Positions 2,623 to 64,000 of a DNA stretch of 64,000 nucleotides are shown in pieces. The notes beneath the pieces are model-generated. The model saw only the letters and a list, made by a program, of their open reading frames with translations, searched no databases and was not told the DNA's origin. The DNA is taken from the NCBI RefSeq assembly GCF_000830885.1, contig NZ_CP006951.1, positions 496,001-560,000 of the forward strand, written 5' to 3'. Source of the DNA: Dehalococcoides mccartyi CG5. GTDB taxonomy: Bacteria > Chloroflexota > Dehalococcoidia > Dehalococcoidales > Dehalococcoidaceae. The stretch's first letter is position 1; each line of letters starts with the position of its first letter. The position numbers were made by a program, and so were the translations under genes.

Positions 2623-3252
2623 ATGACGAAATCAACCAGGGTAATTCCGCCTTTCCCCCAGATGACAATAGGGGTTATGGGTTCAGCCGGTGGGACTATG
2701 ACTGACGAAACCAAAAAAAGTTTACGGTGTTTGGGTGCCTGCATAGCCAAGCGCAAACATGTGCTTATTACCGGTGCCTGCCCCGGAATGCCCCATGAAA
2801 CCGTTCTGGGGTCTAAAGAAGAAGGCGGGGTAGTAGTAGGTATTTCCCCCGCCCTGAACTTGGAAGAACATGTAGAAAAATACCACTCTCCCACTCGTGG
2901 TTACGATGCTATTATCTATACCGGGTCAGGTCTGATGGGACGGGAGATTGAAAATATCCGCAGTTGTGACGTGGTGATATTTGCCGGAGGGCGGTCCGGT
3001 ACGTTGGGTGAGTTTGCTATAGCTTACGACGAAGGCAAAGTTATAGGGGTACTGCGGGGAAGCGGCGGCATTGCTGACCATCTGGACAAGATTATTGCCA
3101 TGGTGGACAAGGAAACCGGTGCCCGCGTTTACTATGAATCAGACCCGTACAAATTGCTGGACATGCTGGAAGCAGTTTATCGGGAGCGTATTCTCCCCAA
3201 GCATAAACGCCTGCTGGAGAACAATGACCCCGATGGCGTATCCGACGGCTAG
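2623..3252 (+). CDS. LOG/TIGR00725-like Rossmann protein
   Basis: A 209-residue protein of the lysine-decarboxylase-like (LOG) superfamily, closest in layout to the TIGR00725 group. Glycine-rich signatures are visible: GVMGSAGG near the N terminus, ITGACPGMPHE near residue 48 where LOG proteins have PGxMEA, and FAGGRSGTLGEF near residue 125 matching the GGxGTxxE nucleotide-binding motif. LOG enzymes hydrolyse nucleoside monophosphates (cytokinin activation in plants), but the changed PGMPHE motif makes the same activity uncertain. Monocistronic, ending in a terminator. Confidence 0.7.
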   Translation: MTKSTRVIPPFPQMTIGVMGSAGGTMTDETKKSLRCLGACIAKRKHVLITGACPGMPHETVLGSKEEGGVVVGISPALNLEEHVEKYHSPTRGYDAIIYTGSGLMGREIENIRSCDVVIFAGGRSGTLGEFAIAYDEGKVIGVLRGSGGIADHLDKIIAMVDKETGARVYYESDPYKLLDMLEAVYRERILPKHKRLLENNDPDGVSDG

Positions 3253-3285
3253 TTGACCCCCGACCCGAAATGAATTTAGTTACCC

Positions 3286-3321
3286 CCCCCGTTTTCTTTT
3301 GTAAGATACGGGGGTTTCTTT
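3286..3321 (+). terminator. Terminator after the LOG-like gene
   Basis: CCCCCGT (3286-3292) pairs with ACGGGGG (3308-3314) and is followed by TTTCTTTT. Confidence 0.65.
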
Positions 3322-3386
3322 TGGTCTGCAAAAGTGATTTTCCTGATATAACTGCCAAAAAAATCTTACAATTTATGGCTGATGTA

Positions 3387-3415
3387 TTGACTAATCAAAA
3401 ATACTGGAGTAAACT
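3387..3415 (+). promoter_or_regulatory. Promoter of the btuFCD-cbiZ-cbiB-cobD operon
   Basis: TTGACT (3387-3392), a 17-base spacer and TAAACT (3410-3415) match a sigma-70-type promoter. Transcription would start near 3422, just before the first riboswitch. Confidence 0.6.
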
Positions 3416-3424
3416 AAATTTTAG

Positions 3425-3570
3425 TTGAATATGTAACGGGGTAGCTATGAGTGCAAGACCGGTGTGAAGCCGGCGCAGTACCGCCTGCTGTAACCGGAGG
3501 GAATACTTCCGGGAGCCAGAACCTCAGAACCCCGTTTACCAGGCACTCCGCGGAATAGGGAGGGGAGTCA
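3425..3570 (+). promoter_or_regulatory. Cobalamin riboswitch 1 (first of a tandem pair)
   Basis: The B12-box-like core CGGCGCAGTACCGCCTGCTG (3471-3490) is followed by GAGCCAGAACCTC, as in adenosylcobalamin riboswitches. The outer stem forms from GTAACGGGGT (3433-3442) and ACCCCGTTTAC (3529-3539). A hairpin with GCGG in its loop (CTCC 3546-3549 / GGAG 3559-3562) could make the usual kissing contact with CCGC of the core. A terminator follows at 3586, so this copy probably stops transcription when corrinoid is plentiful. Confidence 0.85.
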
Positions 3571-3577
3571 TTTTAAA

Positions 3578-3667
3578 ATGGCTGAAATACCTTTGTCCGA
3601 TGAGGCAGAGGTATTTTTTTGCACCTGGCAAAATGTAAATACAACTAAAAGGGCCTTAGAACTTTGA
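3578..3667 (+). CDS. Possible 29-residue ORF between the riboswitches
   Basis: ATG 3578 to TGA 3665-3667 encodes 29 residues (starting MAEIPLSDEAE). GGGAGGGGAG lies about 10 bases upstream, and its first half pairs inside the last riboswitch hairpin, so translation could be ligand-controlled. The frame runs through the terminator hairpin and into the second riboswitch. A related stretch exists after riboswitch 2. This may be a leader peptide or a remnant of a duplicated gene start; no family is recognised. Confidence 0.35.
   Translation: MAEIPLSDEAEVFFCTWQNVNTTKRALEL
3586..3620 (+). terminator. Attenuator terminator of riboswitch 1
   Basis: AATACCTTTG (3586-3595) pairs with CAGAGGTATT (3606-3615), with one G-T wobble, and runs into a stretch of seven T. 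Confidence 0.75.
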
Positions 3668-3776
3668 GTGCAAGCCCGGTGAAATTCCGGCGCAGTACCG
3701 CCTGCTGTAAGGGGCAAATGCTCCAAGTCAGAACCTCAAGGTTCGTTCTAAAAGGCTCTCCGCGGTAAGAGGAGGT
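3648..3776 (+). promoter_or_regulatory. Cobalamin riboswitch 2 (second of the tandem pair)
   Basis: It repeats the core CGGCGCAGTACCGCCTGCTG about 217 bases after copy 1, followed by AAGTCAGAACCTC. The outer stem is GCCTTAGAAC (3653-3662) with GTTCTAAAAGGC (3745-3756). The final hairpin has GCGG in its loop, and its GGAG arm (3771-3774) is part of the Shine-Dalgarno GAGGAGG. No terminator follows, so this copy probably acts on translation. Confidence 0.85.
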
Positions 3777-3800
3777 ATGGCCATGCAGAAGAATTTGTAA
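3777..3800 (+). CDS. Possible 7-codon leader ORF after riboswitch 2
   Basis: ATG 3777 sits one base after the strong Shine-Dalgarno GAGGAGG held in the riboswitch hairpin, too close for ideal initiation; the in-frame ATG 3783 is better spaced. The ORF ends at TAA 3798-3800. Past the stop the same frame stays open to about 3867 and contains LPD, matching LSD of the 29-residue ORF after riboswitch 1. Confidence 0.25.
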   Translation: MAMQKNL

Positions 3801-3858
3801 GAGGAAAACGCTTTGCCCGATGCCCCTGTTTTCAATATTAAAAATGAATGGAGCAGTT

Positions 3859-4872
3859 ATGCTGGATGATATAAATATGAAACTTAACAGTAAGAGTGCC
3901 CGGCTGGGTACTACTGTTGCCGGTGTCTTCTTAAGCTTGGTTTTGTTGTTAGGTCTGGTGGGTGGCTGTAAAACTGCAGACGATACCAATCCTGATGACG
4001 AAAACCCGGTTGTAACTGAAGTGACTTATCCGCTGACGGTGACAGATCAACTTGGCAGAATCGTAACTATCCTGTCTGAACCTCAGACCATAGTTTCTCT
4101 TTCTCCCAGCAATACCGAAACTATTTATGCTATGGGTCTTGAAGATAAACTGGTGGGTGTGACTACCTATTGCAATTACCCCGAAGCCGCCAAAGATAAA
4201 CCCAAAGTGGGCGGTTTTTCAAATGTGGATGCCGAAGCAGTGACTGCCATTGGACCTGATATTATTCTGGCCTCCAATATTCATGCATCAACAGTTATTC
4301 CTCAGCTTGAACAGCTGGGTCTCACCGTAATAGCTATCAGCCCGGATAATCTGGAAGATGTGTTGGCATCTATTGAGCTTATCGGAAAGTGTCTGAATCA
4401 GGTTAAAAAAGCCAATTCACTGGTGGACAGTATGCAGACCCGTATAGATGCAGTAACATCCAAGGTTAAAAATCTGTCTGAAAGTCAGAAACCGCGTGTT
4501 TTATACATTGTTTGGCATGAACCTCTTATGAGCGTTGGTTCTACTGCCTTCATAACAGGCTTGATTACTGCTGTCGGAGGCGTTAGTATTACTGCTGATT
4601 CAGCCGAAGCCTATCCGACTATTGGTTTGGAAACAGTGCTGGGGGCTAACCCCCAAGTGGTAGTGGTTGGTACTGGAATGGGTTCCGGGGCTGATGCGCC
4701 GCTGCTGTTTATACAGGATGAACCCCGCCTGGCTAATATTGATGCCAGAATCAATGGCAATATATATAGTATAAACACAGACCTTATCGGCCGTACCGGG
4801 CCCCGAATTGTAGAGGCTCTCGAACAACTGGCCAAGATGCTTCACCCTGAAATATTTGGAGCTATCAGCTGA
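3859..4872 (+). CDS. btuF: Cobalamin ABC transporter, substrate-binding lipoprotein
   Basis: A 337-residue periplasmic-binding protein of the BtuF/FhuD (PF01497) family that captures corrinoids outside the cell membrane. ATG 3859 is preferred to the longer frame from 3820 because ATGGAG precedes it. The N terminus is a lipoprotein signal: basic residues, about 20 hydrophobic residues, then the lipobox LVGGC with Cys37. The family signature TIVSLSPSNTETIYAMG follows soon after. Context (riboswitches, btuC, btuD, cbiZ) makes corrinoid rather than siderophore the likely ligand. Confidence 0.9.
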   Translation: MLDDINMKLNSKSARLGTTVAGVFLSLVLLLGLVGGCKTADDTNPDDENPVVTEVTYPLTVTDQLGRIVTILSEPQTIVSLSPSNTETIYAMGLEDKLVGVTTYCNYPEAAKDKPKVGGFSNVDAEAVTAIGPDIILASNIHASTVIPQLEQLGLTVIAISPDNLEDVLASIELIGKCLNQVKKANSLVDSMQTRIDAVTSKVKNLSESQKPRVLYIVWHEPLMSVGSTAFITGLITAVGGVSITADSAEAYPTIGLETVLGANPQVVVVGTGMGSGADAPLLFIQDEPRLANIDARINGNIYSINTDLIGRTGPRIVEALEQLAKMLHPEIFGAIS

Positions 4873-9637: not shown

Positions 9638-9666
9638 TTGACTGGCAGGGTTTTGTCTGATATAGT
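9638..9666 (+). promoter_or_regulatory. Promoter of the cobTSCU operon
   Basis: TTGACT (9638-9643), 17 bases, TATAGT (9661-9666). A start near 9673 fits the beginning of the riboswitch. Confidence 0.7.
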
Positions 9667-9672
9667 TTTTAA

Positions 9673-9858
9673 TGGTGATTAACAAACGGAACACGGTTTG
9701 AATCCGTGGCGGTCCCGCCGCTGTGACTGGGGACTTCGGTTTCTTTAAAGCACTTTTTGTGCAACCACTGTTGGAGTAGTACTCTGATGGGAAGGGTGAA
9801 ACCGGGGGATAATCCGGAAGCCAGAAGACGTGTTACCACCAAACCGGATACCTGATGG
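9673..9858 (+). promoter_or_regulatory. Cobalamin riboswitch 3 (cobT leader)
   Basis: The core GGCGGTCCCGCCGCTGTGAC (9708-9727) is close to the classic B12 box, and GGAAGCCAGAAGACGTG follows about 90 bases later. Between them is a longer variable arm than in the two btuF riboswitches. The following hairpin at 9860 indicates transcriptional control. The core differs from the tandem pair, so this one was not produced by the same duplication. Confidence 0.9.
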
Positions 9859-63052: not shown

Positions 63053-63129
<77 letters not shown>

Positions 63130-63236
63130 CTTGATTTTTCCTCCTGCTGCTATAAAAATATTTCCCCTGTTCCAAGCGTCATATATGTCAAATATTTAAT
63201 AGATTTGCGAATACTAAACTAATTAAGGGTGTATGA

Positions 63237-63513
63237 GAGCGCCCTTTTCATTTACACAGGTGTGGATAGTTTTAAATACGGTTGCTGGTGTATCAGCGGG
63301 TGTGGCATATTAAAACTGTCCCAAGTGACCGAAGCAATGGCGACGGAAACTGACCCAGATAACCTTAGTAAGTTCTACCAAAATACGGAGCTAGGTAATC
63401 TAAAGAGCCCTCTCTGAAGATTGTCCAGGAACTGGGTAGGTAGAAACCGAAAGGGAGCTCCAAGGTTAAAACGTCCCGAATGCATAGGCTACTTGGGGCA
63501 ACTATTTTATCAG
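63237..63513 (+). mobile_element. Probable truncated group II intron (5' domain I only)
   Basis: GAGCGCCC at 63237 resembles the GTGCGCCC 5' end of group II introns, and the next 250 bases look like a domain I: purine-rich internal loops, AAGTGACCGAAGCAATGGCG (63325-63344), ACGGAAACTGACC, ATAACC, TAGTAAGTT, and AACGTCCCGAATGCATAGG near 63470. No reverse transcriptase, no domain V and no 3' end follow before hpt, so it would be a dead fragment. It could instead be an unrelated structured RNA. The assignment rests on pattern memory only. Confidence 0.4.
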
Positions 63514-63522
63514 GGTTTAAAA

Positions 63523-64000
63523 TCAGGGGTTCTGTTTTATACCGGGTATGCCTATAAACGGAAGATTCCGGTATTCCTCATGGTAATCCAGCCCATACCC
63601 TACCACAAATTCATCCGGCAGTTCAAAACCTACATAGTCAATATTTATGTCAATAAGTCGTCTTACCTTGCGGTCAAGAAGGGTGCAAACCTTGAGGCTG
63701 GCAGGATTTTTAGACCTGAGATGGTTTAACAGATAGTTCAGGGTTATGCCTGTATCCACAATGTCTTCAACAAGCAGCACATCTCTGCCAGCTACCTCCA
63801 GATCCATGTCCTTGGTGATGCGTACCATAGATGCATTGCTGCCGCTGTAATAGGATATGGTCATAAAATCTATATCCAGCGGAATAGCTATCTGGCGTAT
63901 TAGGTCTGCCATAAAACAGATAAATCCCCTTTGCACCCCGATAAGTATGGGGCGGTTATCCGGGTAATCATCAGATATTTGGCGTGCCAAGCTGGCCACT
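63523..64000 (-). CDS. hpt: Hypoxanthine phosphoribosyltransferase (start beyond window)
   Basis: The frame is open to the right edge; 159 codons including the stop are in view, and about 20 N-terminal residues are probably outside. The enzyme salvages hypoxanthine and guanine with PRPP. The PRPP motif VLLVEDIVDTGITLNYLL is clear, ISYYSGSN precedes the flexible loop, and VGYGLDYHEEYRNLPFIGI near the C terminus is typical. Confidence 0.93.
   Translation of the reverse strand, partial: VASLARQISDDYPDNRPILIGVQRGFICFMADLIRQIAIPLDIDFMTISYYSGSNASMVRITKDMDLEVAGRDVLLVEDIVDTGITLNYLLNHLRSKNPASLKVCTLLDRKVRRLIDINIDYVGFELPDEFVVGYGLDYHEEYRNLPFIGIPGIKQNP

Follow-up and report, generated by a model that had tools for sequence, protein, structure and literature searches.

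Organization of the locus

The window (the whole stretch of DNA analysed, 64,000 nucleotides) belongs to a genome of 1.36 Mb in a single contig (G000). Near the end of the window, a segment flanked by a tRNA-Arg gene and by the end of a minus-strand gene contains a putative gene of a structured small RNA (Table 1). The product of the minus-strand gene joins a PD-(D/E)XK-like domain to HGPRT and is hereafter called the fusion protein. A cobalamin riboswitch was also found in the window at 9659-9851 on the plus strand (72.5 bits).

Table 1. Features at and around the RNA gene, in window positions.
Feature	Position	Strand	Basis or remark
tRNA-Arg	63053-63129	+
Terminator-like hairpin containing GAGCGCCC	63225-63246	+	Upstream of the RNA, outside it
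Promoter-like TTGCTG (63282-63287), 18 nt, CATATT (63306-63311)	63282-63311	+	Window counterpart of the TTGAC site seen in 57 of 62 homologues
Structured small RNA gene	63313-63509	+	Homologues by covariance model; aligned extent, predicted ends
Closing stem, 5' arm GTCCCAAGTGACC	63318-63330	+	Pairs with 63487-63499; covariation in 62 homologues
Loop-E/sarcin-ricin-like module GGGUA-GGU-AGAA-ACC-GAAAG	63434-63453	+	Pattern in 33 of 62 homologues
Closing stem, 3' arm GGCTACTTGGGGC	63487-63499	+	Pairs with 63318-63330; covariation in 62 homologues
T-run 3' of the closing stem, probable transcript end	63505-63508	+	3' TTTT in 54 of 62 homologues
HGPRT (C-terminal) part of the fusion gene	63523-64000	-	520-aa ORF extends past the window; complete in L015:1498-3060

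The original prediction set the element at 63237-63513 and read it as the remnant of a group II intron; its limits are now shifted to about 63313-63509, and the intron reading fails. The supposed group II-like 5' end, GAGCGCCC, is indeed present at 63237-63244 and differs by one base from GTGCGCCC. However, 25 sites in the window match GTGCGCCC with one mismatch where 48.4 are expected, a likeness below chance, and this copy lies inside the terminator-like hairpin, 5' of the conserved element. The proposed check with Infernal and Rfam was run on 63130-63600, both strands, and returned zero families at E<=5; the group II intron covariance model, which represents the catalytic core (domain V), was likewise unmatched there at E<=5. 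The RNAs of nine homologue loci matched nothing in Rfam at E<=3. We found no intron-encoded reverse transcriptase or maturase among the ORFs of the segment, which reach at most 102 aa, the neighbouring gene aside. The predicted lack of domain V, maturase and intron 3' end agrees, indirectly, with these Rfam and ORF results, and many real introns have no reverse transcriptase/maturase ORF. The intron reading was rejected on the Rfam results for the window and the nine homologue loci, on the below-chance likeness to GTGCGCCC and on the position of the hairpin upstream of an element that many genera have in intact, covarying form. A mobile element was rejected as well: blastn of the RNA against plasmid and phage collections gave zero matches, and phage matches to the protein, in the 8 rows listed out of 19, concern its HGPRT part only.

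Conservation and covariation of the RNA

A DNA search of 61 genomes found the segment in three: its own genome and, at 90% identity, two others from this genus. In the alignment of these three same-genus species, 185 of 197 positions are identical in the RNA stretch, compared with 78 of 98 in the coding sequence next to it and 36 of 71 immediately 3' of the tRNA; the RNA is the best-kept portion of the alignment, second to the tRNA. In loci gathered by a search with the neighbouring protein, whose named relatives are mostly from Dehalococcoidia, nhmmer extended the RNA to other genera, again downstream of the gene, and further homologues were added by pattern search and by eye. The shortest member has 101 nt.

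The main set (A7) consists of 62 hand-chosen RNAs in a structure-blind MAFFT alignment, leaving out near-identical copies (such as L017, L021, L024, L107 and L181), the 242-nt L183, L116 and L192. Opposite-strand rows and the 37-nt L098 row were excluded from the RNA sets A5 and A7. In these 62 RNAs, 10 of the 13 pairs of the closing stem have changed on both sides. The alignment contains 89 cells with both-side changes in the stem, whereas shuffles gave 25.7 and none of 500 reached 89, a test in which relatedness of the sequences remains. Cells of the stem were paired in 96.8% of cases, versus 29.7-54.2% when slid. Smaller alignments gave both-side changes in 7 (19 RNAs) and 9 (27 RNAs) of 14 predicted pairs.

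The original prediction noted GNRA-like and purine-rich loops, a fair description. The stretch 63225-63525 folds better than its shuffles (z -2.56; 2 of 100 shuffles as good), and 63434-63453 has the module listed in Table 1, which we take to resemble the loop-E/sarcin-ricin motif. The pattern [GA][AG]GUA, hairpin, GAAA occurs in 33 of the 62 RNAs, twice in some of them, as compared with a mean of 5.4 and a maximum of 13 in 200 rounds of shuffling. Covariation within the module hairpin is modest: both-side cells number 11 versus 5.1 in shuffles (2 of 500 as high), the number of changed pairs is reached in 126 of 500 shuffles, and pairing is 81.4% versus 72.0%. This test kept all 37 aligned pattern matches, at least five of which are visibly not the module (L026, the second in L097, L134:7037 and two of L136).

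Sequence signals occur at both ends of the RNA. TTGAC is found in 59 of the 62 RNAs within the 60 nt upstream and the first 5 nt; in 57 of these it precedes the aligned start by 30-33 nt. As a control, 20 draws of random stretches from these loci had TTGAC in 3.45 of 62 on average and in 7 at most. The window copy, like two others, lacks TTGAC and carries the TTGCTG and CATATT hexamers instead, and a consensus promoter scan of this stretch of the window called no promoter. At the 3' end, TTTT is found in 54 of the 62.

Comparison of the homologues shows 63313-63509 on the plus strand to be a putative gene of a conserved, covarying, stand-alone structured RNA that has promoter signals and is tied to a single protein family. 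The comparison also shows its layout: the ends of the RNA form a closing stem of some 13 bp, after which come small loops rich in purines and a variable arm, on which many members bear the loop-E-like module. Individual minimum-energy folds are mostly rods, with exceptions. The second possibility named in the original prediction, a stable non-coding RNA of unknown type, receives support from compensatory changes, from promoter-like sequence at a fixed distance and from conservation at the same locus.

Two loci have tandem copies of the RNA by the gene (L020, 2089-2275 and 2579-2766; L021, 2095-2280 and 2557-2743). L021 also contains, at 431-473, a long, perfect-looking GC-rich hairpin with a sub-threshold match to a microRNA family (E 0.14).

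Distribution of the RNA and its linkage to the fusion gene

Among 151 genomes of the order, covariance model R1 matched 35 at E<=0.1 and 26 at E<1e-10, the nine matches with E from 1e-10 to 0.1 being excluded from the RNA count. Among 393 genomes of the class, the RNA was found in 76 at E<=0.01. Since both samples were scanned with strict filters, absence is uncertain in either. The RNA stem is nearly palindromic, so the models also match the opposite strand, and two such duplicates were removed before 93 class-level hits were counted. With filters off, R1 produced 106 rows on eight loci, nearly all at chance level. As a negative control, model R2 gave one match (E 0.014) on 28 loci without the fusion gene.

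The link of the RNA to the neighbouring gene, which the original prediction overlooked, is evident in both samples. In the order sample, the GAF and nuclease-like part of the protein was found in 26 genomes at E<1e-50 and, with weaker matches included, in 37 at E<=1e-10. Taking the 26, the RNA is present in all of these gene-bearing genomes, 25 of them by R1 and G103 by R2 only upon inspection beside the gene, versus 1 of the 125 genomes without the gene (Fisher p 2e-28); G137 has a strong RNA match and no gene. In the class sample, the protein was found in 150 genomes at E<=1e-25 and both partners in 72 (p 4e-31), so that 72 of the 76 RNA genomes have the protein. Both p-values overstate the linkage because the genomes are related. 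The RNA genomes of the class without a listed protein are G190, where the gene is truncated at a contig end with the RNA beside it, and G297, G309 and G481, where the RNA match is weak.

At strict filters, the RNA was unmatched in 78 of the 150 protein genomes. When five such loci were rescanned with filters off, the RNA appeared by the gene in three (L192, E 0.0014; L194, 1.9e-6; L195, 5.6e-5) and was still unmatched in L193, where the contig ends 87 nt past the gene, and in L196, where a convergent ORF overlaps the gene.

The placement of the 93 hits was determined relative to 129 protein places. Sixty-one hits lie 514-1130 nt beyond the end of the match to the 290-aa query, i.e. just past the HGPRT part. 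Of these adjacent pairs, 58 are convergent with the gene at short distance and three have the RNA on the gene's strand, an arrangement seen in L177, L178 and L179. The other 32 hits are away from the gene, 28 of them in protein-bearing genomes. RNA copies distant from the gene occur in L094, L095, L097, L130, L132, L134, L136 and L140; in L078 and L079, the gene has no adjacent RNA, and the RNA is located elsewhere in the genome (best E 5.9e-11 and 3.7e-11, respectively).

The surroundings of the pair vary. The gene follows that of ribosomal protein L20 in the window genome (L015) and ribonucleotide reductase in L133, L181 and L186. The proteins of L177 (310 aa) and L182 (312 aa) have no GAF match, and the RNA and gene of L182 are convergent. 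Since the pair persists despite differences in neighbourhood, orientation and presence of GAF, the linkage requires none of these three. The tRNA, previously regarded as a common landing region, seems incidental, because the RNA-gene pair is also found beside other genes. The tendency of these bacteria to keep the RNA beside this one protein suggests that the RNA and the fusion protein work together.

Domains of the fusion protein

In the fusion protein, the PD-(D/E)XK-like domain and HGPRT are often preceded by an N-terminal GAF domain, and Pfam recognizes the GAF and phosphoribosyltransferase (Pribosyltran) domains. The HGPRT model TIGR01203 of NCBIfam scores 188.9, 179.1 and 178 bits in three proteins, above its cut-off of 150. 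The middle domain matches profiles of a phage endonuclease (E 5.4e-7) and a Holliday-junction resolvase (E 4.4e-6). The full-length model of the protein was unused (mean pLDDT 51), and the nuclease-like domain was modelled alone (pLDDT 83). This predicted structure aligns with Bax1 (Z 8.0), I-Bth0305I (7.3), VRR_NUC (7.1), TnsA (6.7) and Vsr (6.3); the top row is a mitoribosomal chain at Z 8.2, and Z values of 6 to 8 can mean a shared arrangement only. Foldseek found nothing at E<=0.001 for the domain model (best E 0.003).

In 68 of 68 distinct domain sequences, E-x-T replaces E-x-K, in a search pattern that also permitted K. The replacement of the E-x-K lysine in all 68 leans towards a role in binding over one in cutting, although nucleases of the PD-(D/E)XK fold that are active without that lysine exist.

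Related domains also occur in other settings. Five Firmicutes loci (L081, L082, L084, L085 and L087) have ORFs of 308-376 aa in which a related nuclease-like domain lies behind a different N-terminal part, followed directly in L081 and L087 by a separate hpt ORF. In Thermomicrobium roseum (L197, NC_011961.1), the hpt gene at 2944-3945 includes the nuclease-like domain, at 65% identity, and overlaps mutM; the annotation of this fusion is simply hypoxanthine phosphoribosyltransferase. The RNA was unmatched below E 0.05 in the genomes of the five Firmicutes loci and unmatched near the T. roseum hpt. Since these relatives have no nearby RNA match, the protein is not dependent on the RNA everywhere.

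Possible roles of the RNA

We consider, with about even confidence, that the stand-alone structured small RNA is a trans-acting partner of the PD-(D/E)XK-like-HGPRT fusion protein; both the binding and the expression of the RNA are inferred. The fusion protein would bind the RNA, and the PD-(D/E)XK-like domain, with its usual catalytic lysine replaced, is perhaps the part that does so; the RNA may in turn regulate or scaffold this enzyme of purine salvage in trans. Such a mode of action would account for the RNA copies far from the gene.

The convergent arrangement of 58 of the 61 adjacent pairs, with 13 bases from the end of the RNA to the end of the gene in the window, would also be expected if the RNA controlled expression of the fusion gene, whether by overlap of convergent transcripts, by pairing with the 3' end of the mRNA or by a shared two-way terminator. 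However, the RNA lies on the gene's strand in three genomes and 32 of the 93 hits are elsewhere, and antisense pairing needs neither conserved internal loops nor a closing stem; we regard such control as rather unlikely. A general regulator acting in trans, either 6S-like on RNA polymerase or as a base-pairing small RNA, is unlikely as well. It would make the place by the fusion gene a matter of inherited history and would be in keeping with the mostly rod-like folds, the promoter signals, the multiple copies in some genomes and the fact that RF00013 finds no 6S RNA in the window genome. An occurrence in 76 of 393 class genomes, 72 of them with the protein, would nevertheless be odd for an RNA with a housekeeping function. 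In addition, RNA and gene stay paired across different neighbourhoods, the shortest member is 101 nt long, and no conserved central bubble was observed.

The nuclease-like domain, the patchy distribution and the joint retention of RNA and gene in different places could be explained by a toxin-antitoxin-like, defence-like or selfish two-gene unit, in which the RNA would be the antitoxin or guide of the nuclease-like protein. PADLOC matches are weak though (best E 0.0045), blastn of the RNA found nothing in the phage and plasmid collections, the E-x-K lysine is replaced in every distinct domain sequence, and the HGPRT part resembles a normal enzyme, and we hold such a unit to be quite improbable. 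The degraded group II intron, with the one-base likeness of GAGCGCCC to GTGCGCCC in its favour, can practically be dismissed, given the Rfam results, the below-chance likeness outside the element and the intact, structurally constrained state of the element itself.

A bolder reading may be put forward tentatively, namely an undescribed RNA-protein system in which a nuclease fold devoid of its usual catalytic lysine would be the RNA-binding arm of a (GAF-sensing) HGPRT and the RNA its working part or trans-regulator, bringing RNA and nucleotide metabolism together in one particle. The RNA family is unmatched in Rfam 15, comes from Dehalococcoides-like bacteria and their relatives, and is tied to one protein that can be tested biochemically. 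If the RNA binds and controls HGPRT, it would establish a direct link between a small RNA and purine salvage and give a reason for the puzzling fusion of a nuclease fold with a salvage enzyme. Searches confined to open PMC text, with passages of PMC11109978 and PMC1586193 among it, found no description of the RNA. The Dehalococcoides motif in the passages of PMC11109978 precedes reductive dehalogenase genes, and its site is thus not that of the RNA.

Comparison with known systems

6S RNA (RF00013) is similar to the present RNA, with its mostly rod-like folds and predicted promoter of its own, in fold, in separate promoter and in its presence in more than one copy in some genomes, whereas the RNA described here matches neither RF00013 nor any other Rfam family, is patchy in distribution and is linked to one gene. 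RF00013 was unmatched in G000 at E<=0.001, in a search that gave a signal in only 5 of 14 control genomes. The SRP RNA models RF00169 and RF01854 were also unmatched in G000, possibly a limit of the search, since B. subtilis was missing from the controls that gave a signal; RNase P RNA and tmRNA were both matched. Inspection by eye revealed no SRP S-domain hairpin in the RNA.

The small RNAs CsrB/CsrC and RsmX/Y/Z bind a single protein, which they control, and are often present in several copies. The present RNA resembles them in its stand-alone gene and repeated sequence module, and joint action of its additional copies on a single protein would be in keeping with this. It is distinct in being a rod with a closing stem, of another sequence and fold, in having a linked partner gene unlike that of CsrA and in matching nothing in Rfam.

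On the protein side, PyrR binds RNA in the form of mRNA leaders and thus sets a precedent for RNA binding by a phosphoribosyltransferase fold, with a weak sequence relation to the fusion protein (NCBIfam E 9e-8; PDB chains E about 1e-8). Unlike PyrR, the enzyme here is of the HGPRT type, with TIGR01203 above its cut-off, and the RNA comes from a separate gene. The predicted structure of the middle domain aligns with the PD-(D/E)XK proteins Bax1, I-Bth0305I, VRR_NUC, TnsA and Vsr at Z 8.0-6.3, and nuclease and resolvase profiles match its sequence. In contrast to these proteins, the domain is fused to HGPRT and has E-x-T instead of E-x-K.
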